Assembly (NCBI RefSeq): GCF_036370855.1
Contig: NC_088112.1
Location: 20,266,469 to 20,330,468, forward strand
Length of the DNA: 64,000 bases
DNA from: Dromaius novaehollandiae
Lineage: Eukaryota; Chordata; Aves; Casuariiformes; Dromaiidae
Direction of reading: 5' to 3'
The translations under genes were made by a program, and so were the position numbers. Of the stretch, positions 13,691-36,103 are shown piece by piece; positions within the stretch are counted from its first letter, which is position 1, and every line of letters begins with the position of its first letter. The notes under the pieces are model-generated. The model worked only from the letters and a program-made list of their open reading frames with translations. It made no database searches and had not been told where the DNA came from.

Positions 13691-13699
13691 TCCCACGTC

Positions 13700-14300: not shown

Positions 14301-15493
14301 CCGATGGCTTTAATACTCTACGAACGGATGCGCGAGCGATGCCTGCGTCTGTCCCGGCGTTCCCGCTTTCCTCCCGCTTCCGAAAGTTGGACCGCATTCA
14401 TCCGAGGGGCTCCTCTAATGCCTTTCGTTATAAACCTTTCCGCACCACATGCGACAGCAACCTCTCCCTCGAAGAGCTTCCACTCGCTGCTGACTTCGCC
14501 TCGAGCCATTAACTGACAAACTGGCAGCGAACTGCTGTTAACAAATGATTTCCTAGAGATTACCGTTTAAGTGAAAAAGGTTCCAAGATAAATACTCGCT
14601 CCTCATGACAAGGAATGTGAGTTATGCATCCAGGGGTTTGGTACGTGTGTCCAAAAACCAGGCAGCGCAATCCCTGGTGTTGCACTCATCAGCACGGTAC
14701 ATGCTGGTAAACACAAAATGCCATTTTTGTCCTCGGTTCGCTACCAGGGGTTGGTACAACCCGTGATTTTAGAAGACATTTTGGACCATCCAGTCAACGT
14801 TCCCATTGCCGCTCTACGAAATTACTGTTCGAGGCTGAAAAAACGATTTGTTTTTAGAGGGAGAACACATGCCAATCGCCTCGAAGGAGTTGTGGTTTCA
14901 GGGCCACCTGCGACTTGCTAAAAGATCATGAAAGTGCAATTTGTTTAATATCTTGGAGTAAATGGTCCAAAAAAGCAGCACAGCTTACTTTTTTGGCTAG
15001 CCCCCTCTGCGATCGTCTCTGAAACACCCCCCATGGCAGGATCCTGCGCTCGGGCCCTTCCTTTTTTCCAGCATCGGCACGGCTTTCCTCGCAGCACGCT
15101 CCCAGCATCACTCACACACAACACCATAAAGCTCCACAGCTCTCCTGGGGAAACTGAGTCACGGGAAACACGCTGCCGGGGACCCGGCCCAGGAGCCGGG
15201 ATGAAGCAGCGGCTCCCTCCGCCGCAGCCCTGCGCCGCGGCTACAAGCCGAGCCGGTTCCTCTGCTATAAAACTCGCTAACGTGCCTCGCTCTGTACCTG
15301 ATTTTGAGAACATCCTGTGTTAACACACAAACAAGCGGCGTTACTAATGCCTGTTTATTCGGCTGTTCCCAGGCGGCTGACACGGCCCCGGTGCTCCCGG
15401 GAACAGGGTCGCTGGGCTCCGTGGTGGGACGGGGCCGGCTCCCACCCCCATCCCGGGAAGCACCGGCAGAGCAGTCACACATTTACCATGGCC

Positions 15494-15508
15494 TTTTTTT
15501 TTTTTTTT
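15494..15508 (+). repeat. Poly-T tract (15 nt)
   Basis: Uninterrupted T15 followed by AATTAATT. Simple repeat. Confidence 0.9.
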
Positions 15509-17377
15509 AATTAATTTGCACAAACAGCAATGCTTTTGGAAATGGCTGCTCATCTTTCATAGACTCACGCTTAGCGCTGCAGCCTGCCTCCGTCCCTCGG
15601 CCTGTATTTATATGCATTTGCAGATCTGGGTACTAGATTAGTAAGGATAGTATATGAGAGTTTAAAACTATTTTTATTTTGCACAGTTTAAGTGCATGCA
15701 CCTAGCCATATAACACTTTCAGTTAATGCCAATGCCCAAGCAACTGGCACTGATAACAGCAGGCAACTTTCTGTCCTCCTGGGTGAAGGAGTGAAATTTT
15801 CTCTACAACTCTCCTGTTCACGTGAGGTTAAGAAGTCACAGACCTCCAGCCTACCAGGATAAAACTATTGCTTTTAACTGAAGTCTGCTCCTAGCAGGAA
15901 AAGCACGGAGTCCAACAGAATAGCAGAAAACCAACGCTGCCAGATATAACCCTAGTTTCAGCCATCAAATTAATTACAGAAAACAAAAAAGGGCTTAGGC
16001 ATGATGTTAACTTCAAGCCAGAAGTGTTCAAAAACTTTTACTGGCTGTTTCTAAATATAAGAATCTGCTGCATTGTACAGACCAAATCTGCCGACACGTG
16101 AGCCAAAATTTCTTAGAAGTGAGCTGGAAATACATCCTTAAATTACTGCTGATTGTGCTCAGAGATGAATGCATTTACTCTCCGAGCTTTAGATAAATTA
16201 TTGATCGTTGTGTCGGGGCGTTCCCAAGCCCCCATACCAGCTCTTTTAGGGAGCTAAATCAGCAGCAGCTCACACGTTTCTGTGATGTCCTTTTACAATA
16301 GTTGATTCTTCGAAGTTCCTAACAGCCTGCAGGAACTCCACAGCCTGATTTAGCCAGCTGGATGTTGCCATTGGAAGAGGGCTCCGGAGCTGGACGAGGG
16401 ACAAGAGCTGCCCTTTAAGTTAAACCCGCTTGGAGGATGGCTGAAGCTCCCACAGCGAATCACTCGGAGTCCCATTTCTCGAGGGGTTTGTGCACGGCAG
16501 CGCTGGAACCACAGCTACATCTGATCTGAATGAAACGCAGACGTCACGATGTGCGTGCCAGCTACTTAAGAAGGAATGCAATTTTCTTGAACACCCTGTT
16601 ATTTTGTTTGATATCTCCAAAGATTTTTCTCCCATTCCAAAAGCAAACTCGCTTTAAGGAAATAAAGTGTTTCCAGTTGCCTTTAGAGGGGCAATGCACT
16701 TAAAAACCTGGACAGGCTGAAATCGCAGCATTTGGACACCCCAGTGTTCGGAGGTGTTTGGCTCCAGCAGCCCAATCTCTACTTATAAAAGAAAAATGCA
16801 AGCAGGAATCAGCACTGAAGATTCAAACGTTTTTTAAAAAGCTATCCCTATACTAATGATTCCAAACGAATAACAAGCTAAAAACAAAACATGACAGCAA
16901 TAAAATAAAATCCGATGAACTCTTCGAAAAGACCCTGAGCGATACCACTTGGTGCGACGCTGTTGCCATCCCAGAGCTACGGCAGTTGGCACCAGCCAGG
17001 GCTCTGCTGCAAACGCACCAAAACGAGGACGCTCTGCCTTTCCCTATTTCCAAACAAAAGCCAAGTTCTGACTGCTGGGGGGAAGAAGAAATTTTTGTTG
17101 TGGATACGTTACTGTGTAATTACCCGCTGCAATTTCATTTACGTTCTTTTGAATGCTACAGCAGATACAAAAGCTAAGTAGATGTGGCAGTTCTTCATGT
17201 CCTTATCGAATGCCCTAGGTTTTCATTTTCACTGCTAGCCTTCATATTTTAGGGATGTGCGTGTCTACTGAAGCAAAAAGAAAGAAAATATTTCCACTGT
17301 CAGGAGAAAGGGGAATGTAACTGATTTTGCCAACCTCCGAGGCTGTCAAATGGATGGCAAGGAAAGAGTTTAACGTC

Positions 17378-17410
17378 AAAAAAAAAAAAAAAGAAAAAGA
17401 AAAAGAAAAA
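17378..17410 (+). repeat. A15 followed by (GAAAAA)n
   Basis: A run of 15 A, then three GAAAAA-type units. Simple A-rich repeat in intron 3. Confidence 0.95.
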
Positions 17411-18999
17411 TATTTACCTGTTTTCTCAATAATATCAGAGTCAGAAATAAGGGGATAAGATCAGAAAGGAAGACCAATGGATAAGAGACTATTCACGGGA
17501 TCAGAACATGGAAAATTCCATAAAGCCCAAATGTTGCTAAGAATATTCAAAAGTCAAAGCTTTCTGTGGGTGTGCATGCATAGAGATGTCAACACAACTA
17601 TTTCATGATCACCGAAATTGCTACTAGCCTGCATCCTCTCCGAATGGCTATTTTTAGGACCCAGCCTTTCATGTGGCATAATGATGTGGATTTTACAAGA
17701 GCATTTATAATGTGTTTCATATGGTGTACAGTCCTGGAGAAATTGCTTTGTATCAGAGAAAGTTAAACAAAAAGGTTTGAGTTTTTTCCTTTCCTATTTT
17801 ATACATTGCTTCTGTTTTGGATTTAGGGTAAACACGCATATTTTTAATTTATCGTACGCGACAGAACTGGCTGTCGCAGCATCGCACCGCAACAGCTCCC
17901 CGCACAACGTGATGCGATTCCACAAAGCGCTACCTGGATTTCTGAACCTTTGTGCCACTTCAGATGGTCTGATTTCAAAGATCTCAACGCCGCATGCTGT
18001 AAGTTATAGCAGGAAGTCAAAGTTCAAAGGCTAAATTTCTATCTCGGTTCTACTGATGCCAGAGGTTGTGCAGGGTCTCCCACGTTCAGATCTGGCCCTT
18101 TTTCTTTAGGGGCAAAGTCACGAAAGGCCAGATTCGTAGAAGAAAAAGACTCCTCCTGGCTCTGTCTTGGCTTCGGTGATCTAACAGTGTGCACTAGTAA
18201 TTGCGGGGAAGCAATATGTAATGAGAACCAAATCGTCAGCCCGTCCATGAGAGGAACGGCACATTTTCATGTGGTAGATCTAAGGATGGTTTATTTCCTA
18301 AACATAAAAGCAACATCCACAGTGCCATCTTTTCACTGTTAGGAACCACGTTCCGCATTTCTGACCCGTTCTGAGCATTTTACTGGGAAGAATATCTCCT
18401 AAACAACTATTCCACAAGTGTGTTTATAATTTTATCCCCCTCGTGCTGAGTCAAGCACACTTTACGATCCCGGGCTTTCACATTTGCCTTTTGTGTAAGT
18501 CACATCAGAGAGGAACCTCTGTTTATGCTGGTACACGCTATTCCTAAGAGCAAACCACAGCAGAAAACAAATTCAACATATAGCACACAAGGTTGAATCA
18601 CTGTAAAACTCTTTTTTTGGTCAGTCCATGATTACTGCATAGCCCTTCAAGACAGATGTGCGTTTTGTATATTATAGTTCCAAATTCTCAGTGGAACAAA
18701 GGAGACACTGTTGAGATTTTTTTTTTGCCTATCATTTAATCAAACGTAAAGTCGTCGTAACCGGAGGGGAAAAGTACTCTAGATTCTAGTATCCAGCTTT
18801 ACTTCGGTTTCGAAAACCCACCACAGCACTGTTGAGTTTATCGTTTCGTTTGACAAAATACTAATTTTGGGACCCCGTGAAGCACAATGAACCTGATTCT
18901 CCGTTGCAGCTGAGCTGCGTTTAGCGCAGAACCAGCGGACGGGAGAGGAACGGTGGTTTAAAGCCACTCGAGTGACCTCCCAGCCCGGAGCTGCCAGCC

Positions 19000-21900
19000 A
19001 GCGTGATGGGCCGGACAGGCACCACCAGCTCTGCCGACCTTCCTCGTGCTCGGTCCTGGTTGGACATCCCGCTTTCTCCACGAAATCACTTTACAGAGGC
19101 AGCGGTGGCAGAATACACTCCTTTAACTCTGACGACGCTCATAACTTATAAACACCCCAACGCCAAACCAGAGAAAAGGGCCACGGGCAGCGGTGGCGGA
19201 CGTATGGAGGTCAGAGCTACTGGTCCGAGATCATTCGGAGGAGACCAAGAACAGGATCCTGCTGCAGTCAAGCCTCAGGGGCACATGCTGTCGCAGCCAT
19301 TTCCTCTGAGCCACAAAGTAGGTGGGTTTAGGCGCTAACGGCATGTGCTGAAGCGGCAATGCTACGGCGAGCACGGAGACCTCGGGAAACGTCAGAAAAG
19401 GGTTTGGCAGAGACTCTGCAGGCTCCCGGCGGGGCTCGGAGGACACCTGGTTGCTCACACCGTGAAATACTCGCCCGCGTGGAGCTGGGCAGAGACCTGT
19501 CCTCTCCGGCAGACCCCTGGGCAAGCCAGCAGACAGCAATACGCGTTAGGTCTTTACTGATTCAGCTGGGTTAAGCCTGGAAACTAGGAAATGAGCAGCC
19601 CCGTATCCTGTTACCAGCTCTGAGTCACCCGGTCCTCCTACCAAACCCTTGTTTCATCCTCCAGACACGGAGAGTAATGAGCAACTGTGTTATAGCCTAT
19701 TTTTTAAGGAGATACGTGAAAGAACAGCGCGCGAGAAAGCCTGCACGGGGGGCTCACAAATCCCCGTTGGGCAGCAACGCGGGGTTTTGTCAGGCCGAGA
19801 ACATCTCCCTGCTACCACGACTCTGTGGCGAGTTTAGCAAAAACTGGTACCCGCTCTGCTCTTCCCGCACCCGCCACGGGCGAACGAGGAGGAAGGACCT
19901 CATCCTCACGTGCCGACGCAAGCCATCTCCTGGCAGCGAGGGGAGTGGGAAAGGCACGTCGCAGACGGCCCCGCTGGCGTGCAAAGGGTGGGAGGGGAGG
20001 GAGGAGGGAGAAGCTGTGCCTCCCACGGTGACACCACCTTCTCCAGGGACGGCGCGGGGGGGTCTGCCACCGGGGCCGAGATGGTCCCTCTTCGAAGAGC
20101 AGAGAGCATGAGATAAGCCCTGAGGACTTTGGGAGGAATGTGTGACTTGGAGGAGTTCAGTAACCACGTGCTTGACTACAGTTTACCCAAAACTGCTCTG
20201 TTCAGCGCAGCATCTCTCAAAAAAGCGCATTTCCCACAGAGGCAGGCAGGCCGCGGAGGCCGTGTACCTCCTTCACCCAGGTCGCGGGGGGGGCTCGAAC
20301 GCCAAGCTGCGCGCAACGATTAATTAACGGCAAGCCATAGACTTTTCCTCCAGACTGCCGACACGTCGCGGGGCTCGGCCGCGGCTCCGGCCTTAGGCGT
20401 GCAGTTCGCACCCCCCGCGCCCCCCCAAGCCTCCCTCCCTTCCCGGGCTTTGGAGGCTGAGCAGCCTCTTTCATCTCGGACACGCCGCCTGCCCGACCAA
20501 CCCCGCGCCCCTCTGCTCTTCACAGTGGAAACCTCAAAAACATCAATCATTAACGTGGATGAGCTCTGGGAGTTCGGGTTTGGGTTCTGCTCTTCCTCTC
20601 CAAATCCCCAAGCAGTCGAGCGCTCGGGGTCTCCAACCCACGTGAGCTCGGAGCAAGCGCAAGCCCACGGAGGAACCGCGGCGCGACGGCAGGCAGTGCC
20701 GCACCGTCCAGACCACGTGCACACGGCTATTGACACGCACGGGTCCACACACAACTCGCCTTTGTTTCCCTGCGACGTTTTTCTTTCTCTTTTTCTCGTT
20801 CCAAAGAGTTTCAGAAGCAAGCTGAAGCTGGACCACACACAGGCAGCGCTGCATCATGTCGCTGCTTCTGCGGCAGAACGCTCCAATTTATTTCAAAGGG
20901 AAGTTCTGCTTCAAAATTGAGGGTGTGATACGAACTCCAAAATTAACACAAGAATTTTCCTTGGGGGGAACCGAGGCTGAACCAGACATGCAATAAGTGA
21001 CCTCGGAAGCCCTGTGCCTCGGTACATCCACCTACCCAACTTTAGGCTTTCATGTAAAAAATTACTTTCACCGTGATCCCGTTTCAAGCTAGGTAGGAGA
21101 GCTGGAGGAAGTGGATGCACTTTGGTCAGGAGGGAACAAGTTAGTCATCCGTCTGCCTGCCAGGATGTCCATCTAAGGACACCACGCTCCTCACACTTTT
21201 CTTCCTTGAATATAAGAATTATGGGGTCTAACGGCACAGATCCTGCCTTTGGGGGCTGGCTGGGATCCAACAGGCTCTGTGGCTTTCGCGCAGCAGCAGG
21301 GACCACCGGTAAAGCCCAGAGCTGCCGTCCCTCGTGGCCACCAGCCCCTGCCTGTTCAAGAGGCTCCTCCAGCATCTGGCAGGACACGCAGCAACTCCCT
21401 CGCAGCGACGGATCCCCGCCGCGCCGACCCCGGGGAGTCTGGCCACCCGTTTCGGCAGGATCAGAACTCGACACAGAAGAAAGCAAGACGGAAACGTTGC
21501 CCTGAGAGCGCAAGCGAGGACGGAAAAACCCGCGCAGCTGCTGGTGCTCCAGCTCTGCCCGTCGCTGGACGGGAACTGCAGCGCTGGCCCCACGCGCGGA
21601 CCCTCCGCTGCCACCACTGATGGAGACTCTGCTCCATGCGTTTCCACCTCACGAGACGTTTCTGGGACCTGTGGCCCCAGACCAGCAGTAACTGCACTTT
21701 AATCTCGCCCCGCTCAAGGGGATCGCTCAAACTCACTGAAAAAATAAAAAAAGCACCAAGCTCAAGGAGCCCAGCGGACCCCAGGGATCGAGTTTTGAAC
21801 TTCTGGCACCATTTCCCAAGCCTGCCGCCCCGCTTTGGTACTTTAAATGAGCAGCGCTTGGGAAGGTCCCACCACGCTTTTGCGGTGCTCTACCTTGAGA

Positions 21901-22640
21901 ACTTAATCCCTAAGAAAATCACGCAGAGGCTTTGCTTTCGGGAGGAGGAGAGGCTCCCGGACCTCCGCTTCCTCACGCAAGAGCGGGACAGAAAACCCAG
22001 TGCATCCAAACATGCCAAACATCTGGCGCCTGCTCTGCCGCCCCTCGTGCGCACGACACGCAGGGGAGCCGCGCAAGAGGCGTGAACCGAAGGACGCCTC
22101 GACCAGCCCCGTCTCGCCGCCCGCGACCGGGGAGCCCGCTCGCCCCTCCGTGCCCGCAGACAGCGCAGCGCTGCCCAGGCCCCCGTTTTCCAGCACCACG
22201 TACAAAAGCAACCCGAAGCAGCTCCTAAGTGCTCCCTCCACCACGGTACATGATATAACAACGTTCAGAAAAACCCCTCAGGTCTCAACGCAATTACACA
22301 ACTGTAGCAAGAAAAATATTTTAATCTGATCAAAGTGTTGACATGTTTGACCATGTCTGACCTCTAATGTTTGTAACCACCTAAAAGGCAGATGTTCTCA
22401 CCAAGGATGTACCTTAATTTGATTTAAAGTTATGTGTACTATTTTAAAAAAAAGGATGTAGTTCTGCGATTTTATATTTCGTTTAGAAAAACGGTTCCTC
22501 GGCTTCTTAATATTCTTGGGAAGTTTCTTGCAGGTTTTTAAGCAATGAATCCTATATTCTCCGCTCTGGGAACAGCTGGAGTCTCCAAGGGCAGGGAGAG
22601 CCGGAGCAGACCCACGTGCAGCGCCTGAGAGCTGCAACCC
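19000..22640 (-). other. TCF7: TCF7 intron 3, moderately GC-rich, no exon recognised
   Basis: Contains many open frames on both strands that owe their length to GC content. None shows a recognisable domain or TCF7-like motif. 20260-20500 and 21360-21600 are the densest in CpG. Confidence 0.5.
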
Positions 22641-23200
22641 TGCTCGGGTGGCTCTGCCGCTGCTCCGGGGCGCTTGCTAGCTAAAAGCGCACCTCCGCGC
22701 TACGCGTGCCCCAACCAGCGCCGGTCTAGCCCGAAAACGGCGTTTGCCACCGATGGCACCAGGTGCCGCGTGCCCGCGCGCGGCAGGGCGGCTCTCGCCA
22801 CATCCTGCCGCGAGCCGGGGGCCGGGCTGCCGCCGACGTCGGGCGCCGAGGCGTTTTCCACCCACCGCTCACCGGCGGCACCCGGACGTGCGAGTAGCGC
22901 GGGGGGGTGCGTTTTGGTAAAGCGCGCGGCCCCCGGGACCCCGGCGGGCGCCTCGGAGCGACGCGGGGGAGATAAAGCCAAAGCGACGCCGCCGAGAAAA
23001 TAAAAACAAAAAAAGGAAGCACGGCCGGGGCGATGCCGGCGGCGACACACCCACGGCGCGCGCTCCGGGCCGGCTCCGGTGCCCGCTGCGGATCCCTGCC
23101 CGGGCGCGACAGGAGCCGTCGGAAAAAACGGGGGTCTGCGGCGCGCGGCGGGGCGGGGGCTCGCGCCGACGGGGAGCTGCACCGCGTTTCTCCGTCACCC
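22640..23200. promoter_or_regulatory. Intronic CpG island 2.2 kb downstream of exon 3
   Basis: Very dense CpG and GC, comparable with the main promoter island, beginning about 2.2 kb inside intron 3. No coding exon was recognised on either strand, although overlapping open frames exceed 100 codons. It is the closest of the intronic islands to the first exons, so it could be part of a broad promoter domain or an alternative promoter. Confidence 0.6.
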
Positions 23201-24619
23201 CCATGCAAAGGCCCGGCAGTTTGGAAAAAGCAGCGCCGGGCTGATTTTTCGATACCTATTTTTTAATGATTATGAGGTTTTTCCTAGCTGCACGCAAGTG
23301 TTTACAGGAAGCTCCAGTCAGACCGAAGACAGCGTTCACCATCGAGCGCGTGCGTGCCTGCGATACGCAACCCCGCCGTCCTCCCCCTCGTTTTGTGCTA
23401 AAAACGCTAATAAAACACACTTTTACGGATGGTTAAGTATCCAAAACTTCTGGCTGCAGATTTGACCTCTTCAATTACCGTGAGCAGCCACCAGATTCAC
23501 ATTTTAAATCCCACCCGCAGCAGCAGTAAATCTGCACGAGAGCAACACGGGACCTACTGCGACAACCTTGACATCGCCAACACAAACATGGAACAAAACC
23601 GTCCCCCCGGTATACTGGAATAGCTACTGCATCATCTCTAAAAACGAAAGAAAGACCAGCCTGCATCCGAGGAAGAAATCTGCCCGTGTTGGACAGGTAA
23701 CAGAATTTTAGCTGAAGACGTTAAATCAGCGTTTTGAGCCATGAAATGCGACACAACGCGAACGGGCCTGCAGCAAAGCCCCCGCGGCGGGGAGCGGTTT
23801 CCGTGGACTCGACGGGACGGGAATCGCTCCTTCTCCATACCGACTTTTCCCACCTTTGAGCTCTGCATGGCCTGTGTGTTTCTAACCATCACCCCAAATC
23901 TAATTCAGAACCCAAATCTACTTTTCAGCCTAATTGCTAACAGACAGGTTATCCCACTTCGTTGTCCCACACATGAGGGTTTAGGATTAAAAGAAACACT
24001 CCACTGCAGTGAATACCCGTTGGGCCAGCGTAACTCAGGACTTATCCAAATTCTCTACCAGGCAGCAAGCTAAATGCTTTTAAATAAAACGGATTTAATA
24101 TCTTGATTTAAACTTTAAAACAGGCAGAGAGCATCCTCGTGTTTTGGAGAGGCGAGGGGGATACCTGCTACCCGAAGGAGGGGCCCCGAGGCGGGGAGCA
24201 GCAGCAGAAACACTTATTTTGGTTAAAACACTGCACATCGGCCCTGCCAGCGCAAACACATCTTTTCTTTCTGCAAACTGAAGGGGAAAAATTGAAGGAC
24301 AGGTCCTAAATATCTGCGCTCTGCCTTCGGCGGGGCTGCGACAGGCTGCAGCAGCACCAGACCCGCTCCGCGGTGCAGCAGCGCGGTGGGTGCAAAACCC
24401 CCCCCCGGGACCATCCGTGCCCCCGCGCCGTGCCGGTGAGCGGGACGGGACGGCAGTGATCCCAGGGAACAGCATTTCACCACGCTTTAACTCAAAGACT
24501 GTTTCAAACCCCTCAATCTATCCATTTTTCACAACACCAGCTCGACATCCTCCCCCTCCAAAGCACAAACGATTGAAACGGTGATAGCAAGGAGGCCATC
24601 ATACGTACTTTTTAAAAGT

Positions 24620-24640
24620 TTTTAACCTTAAAGGTTAAAA
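24620..24640 (+). repeat. Perfect 10-bp inverted repeat
   Basis: TTTTAACCTT (24620-24629), one A, then AAGGTTAAAA (24631-24640). Confidence 0.85.
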
Positions 24641-25185
24641 GCTAAAAGCGAAATACAGTGAGCGATGCTCTCACGCAGGCAGCTGCAAAGGCAGAGCAGC
24701 GTTTGGGGGGGGGGGACGCAGCGCCGCTGGCTCCCCCGAGGCGCGAAACCCTCATCCGTATCACCAAATTTGTTGTAAACATTAAAACCTACAGACTCAC
24801 TAGATTCGACCCGAGAGGGTAAAACTCGGTGGGAGCAAGACGGGAATAGCCCGGTGCTGCCTCCAGCAGCGTCAAGCATTTTCCTAAAAACCTCTATCGC
24901 AATTTAAAAAGCCGAAGATCCAGCTTTTGGGGGACTGACCACACGGAGCCCTGGCCGACGGGAGGCCCAAACCGGGCCGTTTGCACGCAGACGCGTCGAA
25001 CGAGAGCTGAACCGCGGGAATTAAACGCATCCCTGAACGCCAACACCGAAAGCCGCTCGGCCCCGAATCCCGGGACACGAATACAGCGAGGGGCGTCTCG
25101 GGCGGGATGTGCTGGAGAAGGGAAGGTGGAGGATAAGGAGATGTGAAGAGAGGGTCCCACGGCGAGTTTGGGGGGGACGGACGCG

Positions 25186-25215
25186 CGCTCCCGAGCATCG
25201 CGCTCCCGAGCATCG
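25186..25215 (+). repeat. Exact 15-bp tandem duplication
   Basis: CGCTCCCGAGCATCG occurs twice head to tail (25186-25200, 25201-25215) in intron 3, 157 bp from the exon 3 donor. It is a likely recent microduplication. Confidence 0.95.
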
Positions 25216-25371
25216 CGCGTCCTTCCCGCTCCTCCTCGCTCCGGCCGGGACGGACCCTCGTCCGGGCGTTTCGGAAACGCAGTCGGTGCGGAGGAGCACA
25301 CGCCGGTGCCCGCGACGCGCCGGGGCGGCGAGAGGCCGCCGGGCCTGCCCGCGAGGGGCGGCCGGACTCAC

Positions 25372-25478
25372 CAGGGGCGACATGGCTCCGTTGGGCAGGT
25401 AGGGGTCGGAGAGCATGAGGAAGGGGTAGCCGGAGTACGCCGAGCCCTTGTACATCCCCGCGTCCTGGTGCTTGAGAC
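25372..25478 (-). CDS. TCF7: TCF7 coding exon 3
   Basis: This 107-nt exon starts after a ccggcag acceptor and ends at CTG|gtgagt. Its first two bases complete the split glycine codon, then 35 codons follow: LKHQDAGMYKG, SAYSGYPFLMLSDPYLPNG, AMSPL. The YPFLM..PYLPNG..SP motif is shared by TCF7, TCF7L1 and TCF7L2 and resembles the LEF1 'YMSNGSLSP' version. 'KHQDAGMYKG' followed by 'MLSDPYLPNG' points to TCF7. It ends in phase 0, so exon 4 should start in frame, but exon 4 lies outside this window. Together the three exons encode about 124 residues, consistent with the N-terminal third of a full-length TCF-1 protein. Confidence 0.93.
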
Positions 25479-25602
25479 CTGCCGGCAGCGAGAGCCGCGT
25501 CAGGCTGCGCCCGCAGCGCGGCCGCGCCGGGAGCCCTCGACGGGGCGGGCGGCAGCGGGGCACCGCGCGGGGGGGTGGAGGGGGGGGGTCGCTCCGACTA
25601 AC
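25479..25602 (-). other. TCF7: TCF7 intron 2 (124 nt)
   Basis: Short intron with a gttagt donor and a ccggcag acceptor. It is GC-rich with several G runs on the plus strand. It splits a glycine codon (phase 1), and the join restores the reading frame into exon 3. Confidence 0.9.
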
Positions 25603-25669
25603 CATCTTCCATGTGGTCCGGCAGCTTCTCCTGATAGACCCTCTGCGGATCCTGCGCGCGGCGGATGGC
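25603..25669 (-). CDS. TCF7: TCF7 coding exon 2
   Basis: This 67-nt exon follows a pyrimidine-rich tract and a gcacag acceptor. It encodes 22 codons plus one base ([23 protein letters not shown]) and ends at a GATG|gttagt donor. The frame enters in phase 0 from exon 1 and leaves with one base that joins GT of exon 3 to make a glycine codon. The [15 protein letters not shown] string is the TCF7 counterpart of the human TCF7 segment ending in LPEPLEDG, and this is one of the better arguments for TCF7 over its paralogs. It links the beta-catenin-binding domain to the central regulatory region and has no separate known fold. Introns on both sides are tiny (25670-25763 and 25479-25602) and GC-rich, so all three exons lie within 600 bp. 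Confidence 0.93.
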
Positions 25670-25763
25670 CTGTGCGGGGGGAGAGAGAAGCGGAGCCGGG
25701 GGTGGCCGGGGGGGGGGACGGGGGACGGAGGGGGGGGGGGCCGCGCCCGCCGGCCCCGCTCAC
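25670..25763 (-). other. TCF7: TCF7 intron 1 (94 nt)
   Basis: Short intron with a gtgagc donor and a gcacag acceptor preceded by a C/T-rich tract. It is almost entirely G-rich on the plus strand (several runs of 9-12 G), so the transcribed minus-sense RNA is C-rich and the template strand could form G-quadruplexes. At 94 nt it is close to the lower size limit for vertebrate introns. Confidence 0.9.
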
Positions 25764-25961
25764 CTCGGCCTCGGCGGCGGCGGGGCTGCCGCTGCCCTCC
25801 GACTCGTTGACCAGCGAGGACTTGAGGTCGGCCAGGTCGCGCTCGGTGAAGGCGTTCTCGGGGATCTTCTCCTCCTGCTCGCCCTCGTCCTTGAACGCCA
25901 GCATCTCGTCCGTGGCCCCCAGGTCGTCGCCGCCGCCGCCGCCGCCCCCGAGCTGCGGCAT
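25764..25961 (-). CDS. TCF7: TCF7 coding exon 1: beta-catenin-binding domain
   Basis: This exon encodes residues 1-66, exactly 66 codons, ending in phase 0 at a GAG|gtgagc donor. The start ATG at 25961 has an A at -3 and opens with MPQL followed by seven glycines and DDLG. Known contacts of TCF family members with beta-catenin are all present: the aspartate equivalent to TCF7L2 D16 is D18 here, E24 corresponds to E26, and the hydrophobic L41/L48 pair corresponds to L43/L50 within [15 protein letters not shown]. The acidic [10 protein letters not shown] segment is intact, so this exon should support full beta-catenin binding and excludes a dominant-negative isoform from this promoter. The exon ends in an alanine/glutamate tail. 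The reading frame stays open through the 94-nt intron 1, but that intron is not a multiple of three, so its retention would shift the frame. Family assignment to TCF/LEF is certain; the TCF7 paralog is very likely. Confidence 0.95.
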
Positions 25962-26173
25962 CCTGCCGCCGCCCCCCGCCCGCCGCCGCGCCGCAACTTT
26001 GGCGGCGAGTATTGTTCTGCGCCGAGCGGCCGAGCCCGCCGCTCCGCGAGGGCTTCCCTTCCGCGAAACTCCCCCCGAAGAGCCTCCTTTCCCAAGTTTC
26101 CCCCCTTTTCAACTTTTTTCCCCCCCCCTCCTTTTCAACCGCTTCAAATTCCTTCACAGATTAAATTCTCCCT

Positions 26174-26270
26174 AAAAATAAAAAAAAAAACACTTTTTTT
26201 TTTCTTTCTGATTTTTTTTTCCCTCTCCCCCCCCCCCCCCGGCCTCTCTCTCTCTCCCTCCTCGCCCGGT
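26174..26270 (+). repeat. Homopolymer-rich pyrimidine tract in the TCF7 leader/promoter
   Basis: A run of about 10 A, then runs of 10 and 10 T, then 14 C and a CT-repeat. From 26194 to about 26265 the plus strand is nearly all pyrimidine. On the TCF7 sense strand this is G/A-rich. Such tracts can form triplex or quadruplex DNA and are frequently length-variable or missing in assemblies. Confidence 0.8.
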
Positions 26271-26422
26271 GACTGCGCGCAGCGGGCTCCGTGCCGCCCC
26301 CCCGCCGCCCCCCCCCTCCGCGAGCTCCCCCGGGCGCAGCGGGCGCCGGCGGCAGGCAGCGGCACGGAGCGCCCGGGCGCCTCTGTGCGAGCGCGGCGGC
26401 GCGGCGGCCGGGCGCTGCCGAC

Positions 26423-26437
26423 ATCAAAGCGCCGCCG
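26423..26437 (+). promoter_or_regulatory. TCF/LEF site with adjacent GCCGCC helper-like motif
   Basis: ATCAAAG (26423-26429) matches the HMG-domain consensus WWCAAAG. One base later GCCGCCG (26431-26437) matches the GCCGCCR 'helper' motif bound by the C-clamp of long TCF isoforms. It sits about 460 bp upstream of the TCF7 ATG, suggesting autoregulation by Wnt signalling. The GC-rich background makes a chance GCCGCC quite likely, so only the HMG core carries real weight. Confidence 0.4.
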
Positions 26438-26475
26438 CCTGAGTGACAGCGCCGGGGAGGGGCCGGGGGCGGTGC

Positions 26476-26528
26476 GCACACTCACACACACACTCACACA
26501 CACACACACTCACACACTCACACACACG
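26476..26528 (+). repeat. CA microsatellite, interrupted by CT
   Basis: About 53 bp of (CA)n broken at intervals by CT, giving blocks of CACACACT. It is located at the upstream edge of the TCF7 promoter island and is probably polymorphic in length. Confidence 0.95.
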
Positions 26529-26586
26529 AGGGCCTGCCTTAAAGGAGCAGCGAGCGCGCCTCAGCTCCCCCCCCCGCCCCCCCATA

Positions 26587-26626
26587 GCGCGGTATAGCGA
26601 GGTGGCCGCACCCCGCTATACCGCGC
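26587..26626 (+). repeat. Perfect 13-bp inverted repeat (hairpin) upstream of the TCF7 promoter
   Basis: GCGCGGTATAGCG at 26587-26599 is matched exactly by its reverse complement CGCTATACCGCGC at 26614-26626, separated by a 14-nt loop. It lies between the CA microsatellite and the 90-bp repeat tract. No transcription terminator or known element is implied. Confidence 0.9.
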
Positions 26627-26649
26627 ACCCCCCCCCCAACCCGGGGAGG

Positions 26650-27530
26650 TAGGCGCAGCTGGGCACACGCACGCTGCTGGTGTGCTGCATGCATCCGCAC
26701 GGACACCCGCCTGTGTATGCGGCCGTGCACACGCGGCCGTGCACACGCATCTGCACGTGCGCTGCTTGGTGTGTGTCCGGGCTCATCTGCAGGCAGGCGG
26801 CTGCACACGCGTGTGCGTGCACACGTCTGCGCACGCCTGCAAACACGCCTGCCTGCAGACATCTGTGTACATGCATGCGTACAGCCGTGCACACACGTCT
26901 CCATGCAGTGTTCTGCACACACACACCCGCAAACACGCCTGCCTGCAGACATCCGTGTACAGGCACACGTGCAGACAGCTGTACACGTCTCCCTGCAGTG
27001 TTCTGCACACCCAAATCTGCAAATGCAGCTGCATGCAGGCATCCGCGCACACGTCCACACTCAGGCCTGTGTGCAGACACCTGCACACCCACCTACATGC
27101 ATCTCTGCAAGCAGGCATCGGTGCATGCGTGCCTCTGCGCACACGCCTGTGCATGCAGATGTGCACGCACGCATAGGCACACGTCTGCGTGCGGACACCT
27201 GCGCCCAGCCAGCCTGCACACATCCATGAGCACGCCTCCCCATCTGCACACCTCCTACACGCGTCTACACGCGTGCGGCTCTACAGCGTCGTCTCTACAC
27301 ACGTGTGCACGCACACGAACATGCACAGGCATCCAAACACACACCACAAACACATCAGCACACATCTGCACACATCTGCACACGCACCTCTACATGACTT
27401 GCGCAGAGGCCTTTGCACGCCCATGTACAGGCACAGGGCAGCGCACAGGCGCGTGGCCCCACGCCGGGACACACGTGTGCACACACGCCCGCACACGCGT
27501 GTGCACACAGAGCCGCGCCGCGCTCCCCGA
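26650..27530 (+). repeat. Imperfect alternating purine-pyrimidine tandem repeat, 90-bp higher-order period
   Basis: About 0.9 kb built from variants of CTGCACAC, CACGTCTGC and CACACGCCTG. Two consecutive 90-bp units (26841-26930 and 26931-27020) align without gaps at about 81% identity by hand count, and a third, more diverged unit begins at 27021. The sequence is largely alternating purine-pyrimidine with many CpG and CpA steps, so it has strong Z-DNA potential. Long open frames on both strands here encode low-complexity Cys/His/Thr/Ala-rich peptides and are side effects of the repeat. It resembles a GC-rich avian minisatellite. Confidence 0.85.
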
Positions 27531-28361
27531 CCCCAGCCCCTTTGGAAGCACAGACGTGATGTCGGATTGCAGAAAATTATTAGTTTTCCTGAGTGGCCCC
27601 GAGGGTCAGGAAACACGAAATTACCATCTTCGCAGCCGGTTTCGAAGACACTAGACACTTCTGTGTCGGCGTCAGGTTTTTCTCTGTGAGCAGTTCCCAT
27701 GGAAAGGGAAACTCCCCGTCTCTTCTGATCACATACGGCAGGTCCTGTGCATGTCTCCGGTAGCTTAAAAAAACACACCGATATTTATTTTCCTTAATTA
27801 AGATTGCATAAGATAGCCCTGGGTCCTGGAGACTTTTCTACAGACTGTAATGACGCCATGTAAATTGTTTTTTATGACCCAATATACTACATATTGTCAC
27901 ATTCAGCCCTTGAATAGGAAGCTAAAACTCTCGGTGCCTATATTTCTTGTTAATTAGGGTATTATTACTATGGATATAATCTCATTACTTTTTGGGGAGG
28001 AGGAGAACTAGTTGGAGCCACTTTGAAAAGTACTGAATGTATTTAAATGAAGCAAAATCCGTCTTTCTGCTAATTGCTGATTTTGCATGACACAGAATTA
28101 TTGTTCTTATTTGGGGGGCACGGTTTGCGCTGCGCCGGGGGAGATGGGGGGCCGTGAAGGGTGCTGCTTACTGTTTTCCTGCTCGGCTCCTGCGGCCGAA
28201 CGAATGAGCAGGCTACCCCATAGGAAACTCCGTCCGCAAATTCCCATTCTTTTAAACATCGCAGAAATAAAATAAGCTGCAGCCACTTTGAGTAATCATC
28301 ATTTGAATGAAATATTTGCTACTTTAAGGTTTTTTTTTTCTCTTTCAGATGATCCCCTTGT

Positions 28362-28505
28362 TTTGCATGTGAAAAAAATCGTCTGAGATTTACAGCCCTC
28401 CCAAATGGAGATAAAGCCTTGGCAATGAGTTGGAAACCTGTTGTAATCTGTGATCCAGGAAACAAAGAGCCTCATTAATGCAGAGACTTTGGTGAGCCTT
28501 TGATG
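28362..28505. promoter_or_regulatory. Candidate upstream enhancer with two TCF/LEF sites, GATA and octamer-like motifs
   Basis: Within 145 bp, about 2.4-2.5 kb upstream of the TCF7 ATG: TTTGCATG (octamer-like, 28362-28369), AGATAA (GATA-type, 28409-28414), AACAAAG (TCF/LEF core, 28461-28467) and CCTTTGATG (28497-28505, full match to the SCTTTGATS Wnt-response consensus). The motifs are visible; an enhancer role for T-lineage or Wnt feedback control is inference. Confidence 0.35.
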
Positions 28506-31500
28506 TTAGCTAGCATAGCATTCACTCTCAGTGCCATTTGCATTTAAACATTCATAAAAACATCATCTCTGCTTCCTTTGCCTTAAGCAATTTAGGAGTA
28601 AAGTATAGCTTCTATTTAAAGAAACCCACTGTGGTGAGGCTTAGAATACAAATATCACATAATCTTCAAGCAGAGCAAATATTTTATCCTACATTTCTGG
28701 TGGGCACATTTAATAATATTATATTTAAGACCCAAAATAAAAGATCCATCTTATTTTCATTAACCGTACACCACACATTCAAGTGAAAAGCGAAAAGGGG
28801 CCCTGTTAATTCTAAATATGCTACATATGAATGTGTGGAAGTAAGAGAATCCAGAGGATTTTACATTTTTCGCGAGAGCTGAGTTTTTAAAACCTGGCTG
28901 CGTACAGCAAGGTGCCCAAATCTGTGTTTAGGCGTTCGGCACCGCAATTTGTGAGCTTGGGGAATTTGGGGAAGCACTTAGAAAACAGCGGCCTATCCAT
29001 CCTCCCGTTTTCAAAAGGATTAGTCCCAAAGGCACCTATGGGAAGTGGGGCAGTGCTAGAAATACGGGAGTCGGGTGGACCTGATGTCTGGAAAGACGCC
29101 GCTCCGGGTGCCCACGTTCAGCGTACCCTTAAAACCAACAGGGAGTTAAAACTGATCCCCTGTCACGCTGTGAGCTCCTCATGTTTCCACCCTTAGGAGC
29201 GAATACGAGGGAATCTTTACGCTTAGGGCTGTGAGCCAGTTTAGCCAGACTAATGTTTGAAGCGTTATAGGCAAGTTTCCTATATGATGAATACCCGAAA
29301 TTAAAAATTGAAATGGAAAACACTTAAAAACAACTTTACCTCGGAGAAAATATTTCTGGAGCTGGATCAAAGTGAAACAAAAAGCCTGGCTTACTTGTCA
29401 GATCATATCTGCGCTGAACTTCAAGGTTTGATTTGTATTATTTACATGGAAAAGGTCTCAAGAAACCAATTTGGCACTAAGTATCTTCATTACGTTTTTT
29501 CGCTTGTATGGGTGATTAAATCAATCTAGGGTTCCTATTTTAATTTTTTTTGAAAGGTGCAGCCATCTGTGAATCGTGGAACTTTTCTGATGTCATCTCT
29601 GTGCTGCAGACATGCTTTCCCCCCCCCCCCTTTTTTAATGAGACATTTAAAGAAAAGGAGCGTATTTGTTTTCACGGTTTCTAACTGTCCTTCCAGCAAC
29701 TGTTTGGAATTAAAGCCGTGCAGTAACTTTTTAGAACATTTTAACTGTAACAGCTGCAGATAATAGTAAGCCAGATTAAACGATAACTAAATCTGTCTGT
29801 CAGTCTATCCATTCATTATCCTGCATTTATCAACATGTTGTCTGAAGCTGTATGTGAAGCCCAGCACATATATATTTGAATCACAGTATGCGGACTGGCG
29901 CTGTGTGTCTTCGCCATACGCGTTGCATTAAGTGAAGCCTCTCCTTTAAAGTCGATGTAAAAGTTGCCGCTGGCTTCTCTTAGGCTAAAATTTCACCCTC
30001 ACTTCCACTGAAAGGGGCTTCCAGCAGAAGCACTTGAATTTACACGTCGCTTTTGTTTTCTTACGTTTTTGTTCATGTAGTAGGACCAGTTTGGATGAGC
30101 TTTCGTTTTGCTCTCCGTGGACACATTTTACACCTCGTATAGGTCCGTTTAGTCCATATAGCCCATTTAGCAGGTTGAATGTCCTACATCTGCCTTCCTA
30201 TTTCATCGCATTCGACGCAGATGCGTTTCTCCGATCTGCGTACACAAATCGAAGTGTGCTTTAATTTAAAACCAGGCTTATTTAGCATGCTTTTCACGGC
30301 AGATTAATCGGTTCTGCACTGCATTTCTGAGGAGCCTTCTGAACAGTTGCCGTTTTTTGGAGGCACCTTTGCGCAGCTCTTCCCCAACGACGGGCCGATG
30401 GACGGACTCGCAGAGCAGATGTTTCGCAGACCCGCGAACCGGGGGCCGAGGCTCCCGCGCGGCGTTGCCGCTCGGGCAGGACAGGCTGGTACCAGCCGAA
30501 CGAATCCTGGCAAGTGCCCAGAGTAAATCAGGCCACGGAGAGCTCTGTTTTGCCCAAAGGGGTTTAGGCTGGTGTAATTACCTCAGCGTAGTCATAGCAG
30601 GAACATTTCCTTAGTCTAGACAAGCTCTAATAGGTAAAATAGACCTATCGTTTGCAACTGAAACATCTCGACCCGGCTACGGCAAGCTCTGCCCCGCGAT
30701 GCTGCGTGGTCTTCTCTCCGCAGCGTCTCCCCTTGGCTCGCGTCTGCCCGGGCACAGCAGGGCCCTGGGCTGGTTTGGAGCCTCCTCCGGTTTCCAGCTG
30801 CTGGTCTGCAATAGGAAAAAGGGTCAAGCAGTCACTCAGCCATTTCCCCACGTGTTTCTCTCTGCCTGCCCGAATCCTGCACTATTTTAAGTATTTATTT
30901 GACTTCCGTGACGAGCTCTACGACGTGCATTGATCTAAACGTACTTAAAAGATTCACTGGCAGAAGCCAGAAGGTTGCTTTTAAAAATACGAACAGAGAA
31001 TCAACTCCCTGACATTGCAATATTTCAGTTGCTTTCTAATGTCGACATGCTTTTCTGGAAGTGTTCCCAGCTGTTACGACTGGAGATTCCTTTTTTCCCT
31101 CTCGGGAGGCAAGTAGCAAAGGCACCGCAGCCTGGCAGCTGGGGCCCGAATCGTGCTTTCGCCAGGAAACTCTAGTGAAAGAGGATAATCGCTCTCAGAA
31201 GTCATTATCAGATGTTAAAAGCCATAATGCGAAATCCATTTTGGAGACTGCGGTCTTTGGATAACTCCCTGCACCTATTGCACAACCTGGCAGGAGCTAT
31301 TCTCAGAGCTCCCTGCTGCAGTTTTAGGCTTTACCTGTGCCGGGAGAGTCCCTCCGCTTAGACGTTGTCAGGTTGTAGCACTGTCTCTTCAGGCAGTTTT
31401 CACTTAAAAAGTCGTTCCTGTGTTCCTGATACAAACAGCACTTCGGATTATGGAAGGATTTTGAAAGACTCACCCATTTTTCGCTCTGTGTTTTGCTCAC

Positions 31501-31905
31501 CTCTTGGTTTTGGAGCTCGACCAACCCACTGGCACCGCGTTTAGTATTTCTTACTACTTTCACTAGCAGGTTCTCAGGTGCTCGGCCGCTGCTGAGAGAT
31601 GTGTTTCCAGCAGGAAGGAGCATGTTTATTTGTTTACAAAAACACTTCTCCAGCGCCGCATCCTGTGGTCATGCAATCCTCCGAGTAGTCCCTGCGCCGA
31701 TGAGTCACCCCTCCAAATTAAAAGGACTCATGAAGAAGGATTTGCAGAATCACACTCATCGCTTCCACAACCCTTTTTTCTTAAACCATAGGGAAAAGTC
31801 AGTTGATTTTTTTGATCTATAAAACCCTATTTTTACCAACCAAACTACTGGATCCCTTTTTGTGCCTGGCACAGTCCTTGAGATTTAACGAAACCCCTAT
31901 GAGCC

Positions 31906-31913
31906 CGTGGGAA
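31906..31913 (+). promoter_or_regulatory. Candidate RBPJ (Notch) site
   Basis: CGTGGGAA is the high-affinity RBPJ/CSL consensus, about 5.9 kb upstream of the TCF7 ATG. TCF7 is a known direct Notch target in thymocytes. An 8-mer is expected about twice per 64 kb by chance on both strands, so this is weak on its own. Confidence 0.2.
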
Positions 31914-34900
31914 TAGCCCCTTGCTGTACATTACTGGCCTGCTTCAATTCGCATAAAGTACACTTTGTCCTGGGGTTCCTGTTTGTACACTGGATGGAAC
32001 AAAGTACAAGAGAAATCCAAATATTGTTCTTTACGCTCAGGCTCTGGTCGCACTTGCTCTCCGGTCTGCAGCTGAGCCTGGTCGCGAGGTCGTTATTCAG
32101 AGTCAGCCTCCGACTGCTTCTTGCCCTCTTGCACGTCTTCCAGCCGGGGGGACTGCGCTCCATCACGTGGGCCGGCAAAATTTCACATACAGCCATTCCC
32201 TATCCTGCCTCGGACAGAATGGTCCCACTTTTAAAGGAAAGTCCTATTGTTAAGAGGGCATTAACTGGAGTAATTTCAAATAAAAGGGGCTGGATAGCTC
32301 TGACTGCGGATCATCGCTGAGAGCAGGGCAGCAATGAGCTGCTGAACGGAGCGACGGGCAGTGATTTCCCAGTTTGGTTTTAGTTGTCCTGCACCGAGAC
32401 ATCCAAACGGACGACTACTGTTTTTTGGATGCTCAAGAGAGCGGTGGAAGGAGCAAGGCACAGACTCGCGCCTCGCCGAGAGGTACCTGCGGGGACCGGC
32501 GTTGCTGGGGAAAAGCGAGCAGGGTTTGGGTTATTATGACAACCTTGGCTGCAGCTCGCCCTGTGATCCCCACATTAGCACATCAAACCCCTGCCGAGCG
32601 GAGCTGGAGGCTTTGGCAGTCTCCGGCCTTGCCCGAACGCTCGCTTGAGTCACTCGGCGGGAAGCCCTCCCCGGCGGGCTGCGCTTCGGGGCTGGGCAGA
32701 AAGAAAAGGGGGGAGAAAGGGAAACAGCTGGCAGCAAGCGAGACGGAAAGGAAATCGTCAGGATAGCGGTGGTGGGACAGGCCGGCCAGTTCGGAAGCCC
32801 CAGGAAAAGGAGTCCAATATCTAAAAGCCACCCATATCATCTGGGGCATAGCAGACCACTTCTGATACACTTCTCCCGGCACTTCTCCAGACCCATAGCG
32901 AAAGGTGTCTTTCTGTGCAATTTTGTTGTGGTTTTTTTTTTGCATAATTTTTAGCTTATGATTGTTGCCTGCTGTGGGAAAGAAGAGCAAATAAGTGAAG
33001 AGCTTGGAAAAAAGGAAGCAGGGGAAAGAACATGGGGCGGGATTTCTAGAGGGGGAACATTAAATTTATAAACTTCCACAACAAAATTATTAAACGAAGG
33101 AGGAGGAAAGAGCCCAACGTATTTACAGATCTGAATTCAGCCAGGTAGAGCTTTCTGCTAATGGACGCAGAACACTTTCTTTACTAGTTGCAGAACATTT
33201 TTATTTATTTTGGAAATGTTCTTCCTTTCAGCTCTTTACTGCTTTCTCGAGACGTGCTGACACGACGCCCGGGTGAGCCTGTCAGCTCCATAGCTCTCTG
33301 TACGTTATACTGCAAAATGAAAGAGAAGTGAGGAAAGGTAAATGCTAAAGGAGGCTTGTAGCCCTGCATCATTTACGCCACCCCCCTCATCCTCGCCACG
33401 TCCCTCTTGCCAGCAGCTTCATCGCTCCCCCTTGTCCAAACGTACGTCGGCGACTTTGCTGTCCCCTCACACTCATTTGTACGGCTGCTCTTGTCTGCTT
33501 TTCTGAACTTACAAAGAGGCTAAAAAGAAGCCAGATTAAAGGAGCATTAAAAGCTGAGCTGCAAATCCTCCCATATTAAGCAAGGCAGTTCCTGTAGCTG
33601 TTTTGGGCTGGTTGAACAGAAGGGGTGCCTTTGAGTTGAACTACATGTTTCAACAGTATGTTGTTCTGAAAAGTGTTGTATATGTGCCGACATCCGCTGT
33701 TGGCATGTGTACAGACTGCAGCTTGCCAGCTCCTCCTAATCTGGAAAGAGGAGACACGCGGTGTTAAATACATGTGTCATCGCTAGTCTTCCCCCCCCGA
33801 CAATTTTATCATTCGGTTGTGCAATGCATTTGGACCAAGCTAGCCCATTTAGTTTAGATGAACTTAGGCCAGATAACTGTGCTGAAGCTGACTTCAGAGA
33901 CTCGCGAGCAGTTGCTCCAATAGCTCGTCCCCAAGGAGATGCAACCACCCTGTTGTGCTCCTCGTCCTGCCCCGCAGACAGAGACTTTTCGGTGGGGCTG
34001 CGGTCGGAGGGGGGGAGAGCCCCTAAGGAGACAGACGCACCGGGCAGCTCGCTGCATCACGCGGCTTTGCACCCTCATCATGTCGCATCTTACGGGCAGA
34101 GCAGCGCCAGGCCGGAGCAGGGCTTGCAAAGGGGACTCCAAGGAAACCCCGTGCCGCAAGGGGTGGTTTGGGTGACTCAGGAGGTGACATGGGTCCTTCT
34201 GAGTCAGGGCTGAACCCACGTTCAGGCACGGCGTTAGCACGCCCAAGCTCGGGACGTTTTTTAGACTGAAGGCCCGACTGCTCATGCCAGTAAGCGTCCT
34301 GGGAGACGTGTGTACCGGTGCAGACGGTGAGCCCAGTGTCCCCGCTGCAGCCCAGCTGTCACCATGGCGCTTCCCTCAACAAGGGCTTTGCACATGGTGT
34401 CACTTACTGCCCCCTTTAAGGCTACCACCGTGGTCCTGCCACAGTCCTAAGGTATGACTGTAGCTGGTTGTGGCACACCTTTAACTAACGAGCCCGGAAG
34501 CTCACACCTGCGTGGTAGCTTCAGCTGCTGGGTATTTAAGCCGGGGTGTTGGTGCTGCAGCCCCTGGTGATGGCTGGGCTGGTGGGGTGCGAGTAAGCGC
34601 GGGTGAAACGTGCTGGGCATGTCCGTGGGGGCTGTAGGCTCATCCTGGGCTTCTTGGGGCGGCTCTGCAGCTTGCCACCAGCCCTTTGCTGGACCTGGGG
34701 AAGCCTGGGAGTTACCTGGCCGGTAACAAGTCCAAAATGCGGTCAGGAGTCTTGGGGGATCCTGGTCCAGACTCCAGCTCTTGAGACCTTTGGTTTTTGG
34801 GCTGAGGTATGTGACAGTTTGTGTCCTTAACTCTGTCGTGAGTCTGTTAGTTGTCTGTGCATACCGTGCACGGGGATGGGCTATGCTGTGGCACCAGATG

Positions 34901-35889
34901 GTGCGTTGCTGGAGGGTTAAGAAGTGTGCGGTGGCAGTGGGCAGCTCGGTTACAGGCAAACAGGAGCTGCTAAAAGGCTTCAGTGACTGGAGAAGAAAGC
35001 ACAGAAGCAGAGACTTTAGGAGGACAAGAAGAAGTACATAAAAATGCAGTCACCCATTTTAATGGCTAAACATGAATTATGTTATGAGATGCTTTCATCT
35101 TGGTATAGGTTAGCATTCCTCTGATTTTTATATTTGTGTATAAATATTTTTCTTGAAGTCAAGTTGGCCTAATTGGAAGTAAGGGCTATTCTATGTCATT
35201 TATTTTAATACTCTAATATATTTCCCCCTAGTTAATCATTGCTATTTCTAAATATAAATTTCCTTTCCTTTTCTTTCAAGTCACTTTAAAATGAAAGGGC
35301 CTGCTTTACTCTTTGACCTCCCCTAACAAGCAGACCCTTGAAATGCAGCATTTCCAGAAAGCAAGCTGCAGGAACAACAGATGGATTTAGTAAATTACAG
35401 CCTGCACATGAATTGTACGAGGAGTAAGTTTGGGATGGAGGCTTAAAATAAGCAGAGATTTTTCTATGCTGTGGCTTGTTTCTTGCTGTCAAACCCTGAC
35501 TGTTAAATGTACAAGTTGTGTGATGTTGGCTTTCTGTACTGATTGATTTGTAGGAGTAGTTCAGCCCCAAACTATCAGCTCCGTGGGGCTCAGCCTGCAA
35601 TGCTACTCAGCCAGGAGACTGTGTCCTCGAGGTATGTTTCTGTATCTTGCTTTTTCAATTTGCTAAAGCTATTCTGATGGGCTACTTACGCTGATCAGCA
35701 AATTCAGAAACCTGTTTGTGGTTTTCCAGGGATTTTGTAGACAAATTAGTCCATGTCTATTTGCAGGACAGGTGACTCCTAAATGATAAAAAAGTAGTTT
35801 GTAATCAAAGTTGATTGCTTGTAACAATAATCCTGAGCTAGATATTTGCTTATCTCCCAAGGTGCTAATCCCTTTTGGGATTAACAACT

Positions 35890-36103
35890 CATTTCTCAAA
35901 AGTGTGGCTGTGGTTCTGCAGACCTTGCTGACATGAGTAACCCTTCCCGAGTTTGGGGGGGTGATTGGGTACAGGGGCTGCAGGAATGGACCTTCGTTCA
36001 AACACGTTTCCTTGCGGTGATTTAGCAATTGCTCTGAGGTTTGGAACTCCGTGATGTACTTGATAGAGAGGAGCAGCAGTAAGTTGTCATTGTGATCAAA
36101 CAC
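35890..36103 (-). repeat. Diverged dispersed repeat, copy 1
   Basis: Its right end (36017-36103) aligns with 37366-37455 at roughly 70-75% identity by eye, including a shared TTGATCACA.TGACAACT motif when read on the minus strand. Motifs such as CTGCAGG and ACATGAGTAA resemble palindromic MITE-like elements of archosaur and turtle genomes. The family name cannot be given without a repeat-library search. Confidence 0.5.

Follow-up and report, generated by a model that had tools for sequence, protein, structure and literature searches.

A CpG-Rich Domain of About 68 kb over the Predicted TCF7 Gene of Dromaius novaehollandiae: A Probable DNA Methylation Valley and Its Upstream Edge

Introduction

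DNA methylation valleys, also called canyons, were reportedly described by Xie in 2013 and by Jeong in 2014, and hyperconserved CpG domains at Polycomb sites are said to have been described by Tanay in 2007. The portions of PMC8941758 drawn on here report valleys in the fibroblasts of seven vertebrates, including chicken, with lengths from 5 to ~60 kb and often covering whole gene bodies. As described by Li et al. (2018, PMC5806489), in the sections of the text used, human valleys have low deamination in both their island and non-island parts, with a role for Polycomb, and hyperconserved CpG domains at Polycomb sites are cited in the same source. Moreover, the sections used from Long et al. 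(2013, PMC3583005) describe broad non-methylated islands at developmental genes under Polycomb regulation, as well as particularly high CpG observed/expected ratios (o/e) and GC in chicken islands relative to their own genome. TCF7 does not occur in the main text of PMC5806489 or PMC3583005, and Tcf7/Lef1 are not named as valley genes in the part of PMC6126923 considered. Likewise, no mention of an avian TCF7 valley was found in the titles and abstract openings of the open-licence papers listed, which is no proof of absence.

The domain around TCF7 reported here can be compared with each of these systems. Similar to the hyperconserved CpG domains of Tanay 2007, CpG retention in the sequence is taken as a mark of hypomethylation; however, those domains rest on cross-species conservation, while the TCF7 domain rests on one genome. 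It is also like the broad non-methylated islands in being long, CpG-retaining DNA at a developmental regulator, although theirs were measured biochemically (Long 2013, PMC3583005, in the sections used). The valleys or canyons, as far as the portions used of both sources go (Li 2018, PMC5806489; PMC8941758), share with it a great length, a developmental transcription factor, the inclusion of the gene body and the keeping of non-island CpG. Meanwhile, the TCF7 domain is known only through its CpG content, and its ~68 kb slightly exceed the largest of the valleys reported, at 5 to ~60 kb, in those portions of PMC8941758.

Results

Gene Content of the Window and Its Surroundings

The window, meaning the whole stretch of 64,000 nucleotides that was analysed (G000:C15:20266469-20330468), belongs to a genome of 1.47 Gb in 271 contigs; negative positions lie to its left. 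Its minus strand carries a gene predicted to be TCF7 from its own domains and from its neighbours, SKP1 and VDAC1. When 10 open reading frames (ORFs) were scanned against Pfam, TCF7 exon 1 alone passed, within the minus-strand ORF 25503-26108 (E=3.9e-26), and one other match was far below its cut-off. The TCF7 HMG-box exons were located by Pfam near -22.0 and -21.2 kb. In addition, an exon carrying a presumed C-clamp motif was placed near -27.4 kb, and a motif also marks the probable last coding exon, near -32.3 kb. A Skp1-family match is found at ~-40.3 kb on the plus strand, and porin-family matches at 112-119 kb, also on the plus strand, were taken as VDAC1; SKP1-TCF7-VDAC1 is the gene order in human and chicken. 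Just upstream of exon 1 and within its CpG island, CA-rich tandem repeats occupy 26477-27516, including a 90-base unit with 2.4 copies and 80% match. The coordinates of the features are collected in Table 1.

Table 1. Features of the TCF7 locus, in positions of the window unless stated otherwise.
Feature	Position	Strand	Basis
Whole CpG-rich TCF7 domain	~-33,900 to 34,350 (G000:C15:20232569-20300818)		Segmentation
CpG-rich TCF7 domain, part within the window	1..34350		o/e 0.78 for 1-35030; segmentation
CpG island around TCF7 exon 1	24001..27790		Merged 500-bp windows, each of GC>=0.55 and o/e>=0.65
Possible TCF7 exon 2, from a second PF08347 match	25312..25473	-	E=1.0e-4; G000:C15:20291780-20291941
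TCF7 exon 1, N-terminal beta-catenin-binding domain	25764..25943	-	PF08347, E=2.2e-23; G000:C15:20292232-20292411
Edge zone	33650..35040		Union of bootstrap and profile intervals; best change points 34,350-34,660
CpG-poor segment	34351..47300		Rate 0.23, close to the median of 20 random 2-kb windows (0.27)
AT-rich block without CpG	35041..35400		GC 0.33; the outside rate predicts 2.2 CpG, P(0) ~0.11

Extent of the CpG-Rich Domain

The CpG contrast noticed in the initial annotation is real: CpG o/e is 0.78 for 1-35040 compared to 0.36 for 35041-64000, and 0.775 over 69 kb compared to 0.224 in 35-48 kb. Its CpG counts were reproduced in 16021-16620 (20), 29401-29700 (6), 35041-35400 (0), 35041-35640 (3) and 42001-42600 (0), and the count of about 20 for 34441-35040 came to 18 on recounting. 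Segmentation of the window plus 100 kb added on each side, 264 kb in total, gave CpG rates of 0.55 from -33.9 to -27.6 kb, 0.79 from -27.6 to 34.35 kb, 0.23 from 34.35 to 47.3 kb and 0.45 from 47.3 to 164 kb. Instead of the length of at least 35 kb proposed before, the whole domain measures ~68 kb, with the window containing its 5' half and the left end lying beyond it at ~-33.9 kb; of the two edges, the left is placed with less certainty, two fits giving -33.8 and -36.7 kb. Between -34 and 34 kb, CpG o/e is at least 0.6 in 29 of the 34 two-kb windows, and the longest run of 2-kb windows at o/e of at least 0.4 comprises 35 windows, compared to 6 for the runner-up in the 264 kb.

Regarding its fit to the gene, the domain begins just past the last coding exon of TCF7 and reaches ~8.4 kb further than exon 1, enclosing exon 1 and the HMG exons (by Pfam) and the presumed last exons (by motif) of this developmental transcription factor. 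Local dips, with o/e of 0.28-0.43, are present within it at 12501-13500 and 15501-16000, and are perhaps later insertions or methylated patches. On the other side, the TCF7-VDAC1 intergenic region and the sequence after it, from 47300 through the window end at 64000 to 164 kb, have an intermediate CpG rate; at 0.45, it is higher than in the non-island segments to the left of the domain, where the baseline is 0.17-0.22.

CpG Contrast in Relation to GC Content and Islands

GC is 0.54 in the domain, 0.39 in the left flank and 0.42-0.46 in the right flank, dropping at both edges. The control dinucleotide does not follow CpG: GpC o/e is 1.19 over the 69-kb domain stretch compared to 1.24 in 35-48 kb, and the change-point fit on 25-48 kb shows no GpC step at the CpG edge, with a gain of 109 log units for CpG and a best GpC gain of 5, at 26.3 kb. 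Blocks of 500 bp matched at GC 0.36-0.46 have a median o/e of 0.57 inside the domain (n=28) and 0.23 in the flanks (n=209; p ~1e-12), with 0.20 in a random sample (44 blocks), so that the contrast persists after GC correction. This random sample is small: it comprises 20 two-kb windows, of which 14 come from the same contig (C15). For blocks at GC 0.46-0.54, the values are 0.63 in the domain (n=45), 0.45 in the flanks (n=80) and 0.50 in the random sample (n=8), the difference between domain and random sample (45 vs 8 blocks) not being significant (p=0.16). In the GC-rich bins, no clear difference in o/e is seen between domain and flanks, with 0.77 (n=31) vs 0.67 (n=12) at GC 0.56-0.62 and 0.95 (n=23) vs 0.99 (n=8) above 0.62, the GC-rich flank windows being mostly islands; the random sample has a median of 0.19 (n=7) in the former bin and 0.69 (n=6) in the latter. 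Two random windows of the same contig with GC 0.58 have an o/e of 0.14 (L038) and 0.28 (L044). GC content as a full explanation was consequently rejected for the AT-rich blocks, by the GC-matched comparison and by these GC-rich, CpG-poor windows.

The TG/CA ratios are 1.08/1.09 inside the domain, compared to 1.22/1.19 to the left, 1.30/1.23 in 34.3-47.3 kb and 1.20/1.16 beyond; a lower TpG/CpA inflation inside is expected if CpG deamination is rarer there. CpG-rich DNA as such is not rare in the genome, since 6 of the 20 random 2-kb windows exceed an o/e of 0.5 and the six windows taken from other contigs pool to 0.56, those from C15 giving 0.32.

Islands defined by a 500-bp rule make up 62% of the domain, in 24 pieces. 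With these masked, the remainder of the domain has an o/e of 0.57, compared to 0.18 on the left, 0.22 in 34.35-47.3 kb and 0.35 for all of the right side; a laxer 200-bp rule masks 72% and leaves 0.41, compared to 0.18 on the left, 0.20 in 34.35-47.3 kb and 0.28 on the right. CpG appears to be retained in both the island and the non-island parts of the domain, which in this one genome serves as a proxy for low deamination. The other islands in the 264 kb, at -77.9, -48.8 and 103.4-105.9 kb, are ~2-2.5 kb wide.

Position and Width of the Edge

The edge lies near 34.4-35.0 kb. The best CpG change point falls at 34.35-34.66 kb across the stretches fitted. Bootstrapping 500-bp blocks on 25-47 kb gives it an interval of 33.65-34.75 kb, and the profile intervals of four stretches have upper ends of 34.68, 35.04, 35.01 and 35.02 kb. 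A border exactly at 35.03 kb, near which the initial annotation had placed it, is disfavoured, since the profile intervals reach this far only at their upper limit and the o/e of 34501-35000 is already 0.41. Its abrupt appearance there is partly due to a drop of GC, which falls from 0.54 to 0.31 at the 250-bp block starting at 35001. Similarly, the lack of CpG in 35041-35400 (65 C and 54 G) is compatible with background, since so few are expected (Table 1), whereas 42001-42600 has none against 5.9 expected (p 0.003), a stretch chosen by eye in the interior of the low segment.

The width was estimated by logistic fits with a Poisson likelihood, in which CpG clustering makes the differences weaker than they look. 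On 28-47 kb, widths from 0.09 to 8.8 kb all fit within ~1 log unit, while on 15-47, 1-47 and 25-47 kb a width of 4.4-8.8 kb is better than a step by 3-7 log units. A width of 17.6 kb is worse than the best by 3.6 units on 28-47 kb, 7 on 15-47 kb and 11 on 1-47 kb; on 25-47 kb, a stretch beginning within the promoter island, it falls only 0.5 units short of the best and beats the step by 7. The border may then be anywhere from <0.1 to ~9 kb wide, possibly an edge of several kilobases or, less probably, a longer gradient at the right end of the domain. The sharpness of the boundary was, therefore, overstated by the initial annotation, and the smooth gradient that it had set against its own proposal is seen in part.

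As for its rank among the CpG steps of the 264 kb, the step at 34.7 kb is the largest only at the 10-kb scale; at 5 kb, six others exceed that at 34.6 kb, which at 3 kb is outside the eight largest. The ordinary promoter CpG islands (-77.9, -48.8 and 103.4 kb) have larger steps than the one at 34.6 kb at the 3-5 kb scale, and they differ from the TCF7 domain in size, with ~2-2.5 kb compared to 68 kb.

Sequence at the Edge

Compared with the genome, by a search that skips very common words, 34001-37000 matches itself and one 77-base stretch at 78%, and no multi-copy sequence starting at the edge was found in that comparison. There are no N letters across the 264 kb and no tandem array in 27.5-55.7 kb. 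None of the 10 ORFs scanned, out of 198 stop-to-stop ORFs of at least 90 aa, gives a coding match at the edge. A coding exon or mobile element was considered for the minus-strand ORF of 200 aa at 34450-35049 and set aside, as it has neither a Pfam pass nor a PDB match.

CTCF-like motifs with up to two mismatches number 12 in the whole window, compared to 14.9 expected, in a crude consensus-based test; two-mismatch matches near the edge lie at 34679 and 34891. A CTCF-bounded domain was not retained as a candidate, given the lack of motif excess within the window.

Comparison with Other Loci of the Genome

HOX-like clusters were recognised by runs of homeodomain matches, and one point was sampled in each of three of the four (C2, C7 and C22, with C28 unsampled). 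These points have an o/e of 0.61-0.64 at GC 0.43, resembling the AT-rich parts of the TCF7 domain. Two TCF/LEF paralogues were sampled at three points each: that on C4, presumably LEF1, gives 0.82 and 0.74 within the gene, at depths of ~20 and 10 kb, and 0.63 at 7 kb upstream of it, and that on C6, presumably TCF7L2, gives 0.38, 0.27 and 0.19, both names being assumed from chicken chromosome positions.

Two other patterns were noticed among the domain matches. C33 and C35 have, among the matches listed, three homeodomain matches with identical E-values over ~27 Mb, with a nearly constant offset of 13.70-13.88 Mb; for two of them, one further match with the same E-value is present on another contig. 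Barely diverged Z and W chromosomes, like those of palaeognath birds, or two haplotypes of a single chromosome would give such a pattern. In G000:C12:4969410-5203807, six HMG-box matches share the same E-value and have one in-frame stop each, the first at 4969410 and five more spaced 43-50 kb, possibly a tandem array with a broken copy per unit.

Discussion

A CpG distribution that does not depend on GC in the AT-rich blocks and that matches the gene, together with an edge at which no repeat was found, is best accommodated if CpG was retained in a gene-wide domain hypomethylated in the germline, probably a DNA methylation valley near the upper reported size. As read from the sequence, the methylation state, the factors involved and the germline timing would then be as follows. 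In the germline and early embryo, the TCF7 domain would be unmethylated, as in a DNA methylation valley or broad non-methylated island, a state for which CpG-island-binding proteins, Polycomb and TET activity at TCF7 are probably responsible. Its CpGs would escape the deamination of 5-methylcytosine, so that even AT-rich sequence outside the islands would stay closer to the expected CpG frequency, and beyond ~34-35 kb, upstream of TCF7, ordinary methylation would have let CpG decay to the local background. The edge would then represent the evolutionary time-average of the valley border, so that no single base need define it. The escape from CpG decay around TCF7 proposed in the initial annotation agrees with the high o/e of AT-rich and non-island parts, the fewer TpG/CpA and the HOX-like profile, and among its three explanations (valley border, evolutionary breakpoint and assembly join) the first is the best.

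As GC and CpG fall together at the 250-bp block from 35001, two unrelated sequences might be suspected to have been joined near 35.03 kb, be it by the insertion of a repeat, at a rearrangement breakpoint or in the assembly. However, the best CpG change points come earlier, and such an event is very improbable, since the edge is nearly single-copy apart from the weak 77-base match in the search that skips very common words, has neither N letters nor a tandem array nearby, and lies between genes in the SKP1-TCF7-VDAC1 order of human and chicken. The domain could also be an averaging effect over a cluster of short, separate CpG islands with methylated DNA between them, in line with the 24 island pieces covering 62% of it and with the lower remainder of 0.41 under the laxer mask; but the remainder exceeds all flanks under both masks (0.57 vs 0.18-0.35 and 0.41 vs 0.18-0.28), and the other islands of the same 264 kb are only ~2-2.5 kb wide, making this account quite improbable.

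The composition of the domain, with GC of 0.54 compared to 0.39 and 0.42-0.46 in the flanks and a fall at both edges, and the similar o/e of GC-rich flank windows are also what would be seen if recombination at CpG-island promoters had added G and C, and hence CpG, by GC-biased gene conversion, without broad germline hypomethylation. Recombination in birds occurs at promoters, and birds are not known to have PRDM9, both of which were counted in favour of this mechanism. Nevertheless, AT-rich blocks inside the domain have an o/e of 0.57 compared to 0.20-0.23 elsewhere, some GC-rich DNA on the contig is CpG-decayed (L038 and L044), the random sample at GC 0.56-0.62 has 0.19 compared to 0.77 in the domain, and TG/CA is lower inside. 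Biased gene conversion may contribute to the GC and CpG of the domain, leaving its AT-rich interior unexplained, and as a replacement for germline hypomethylation it seems unlikely.

A broader and rather doubtful proposal is that TCF7, and probably also the C4 paralogue, are each enclosed whole in a domain left unmethylated in the germline. These domains would approach or exceed the largest valleys reported, and their extent would follow the transcription unit, from the last exon to 8-9 kb past exon 1. If this were true, gene ends and not promoter islands would set the borders of valleys, and the long-term extent of a valley would be recorded in the sequence alone. The preferred reading as a methylation valley makes this a domain of a known kind, whose main interest is its match to the whole TCF7 gene, its edge being ordinary. 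It provides a 68-kb, single-gene TCF/LEF domain, with a similar signal where one paralogue was sampled but not where another was, and an indication that CpG content alone can flag DNA unmethylated in the germline over evolution. The TCF7 domain is, in this regard, a testable case for what sets the size and the borders of valleys in birds.
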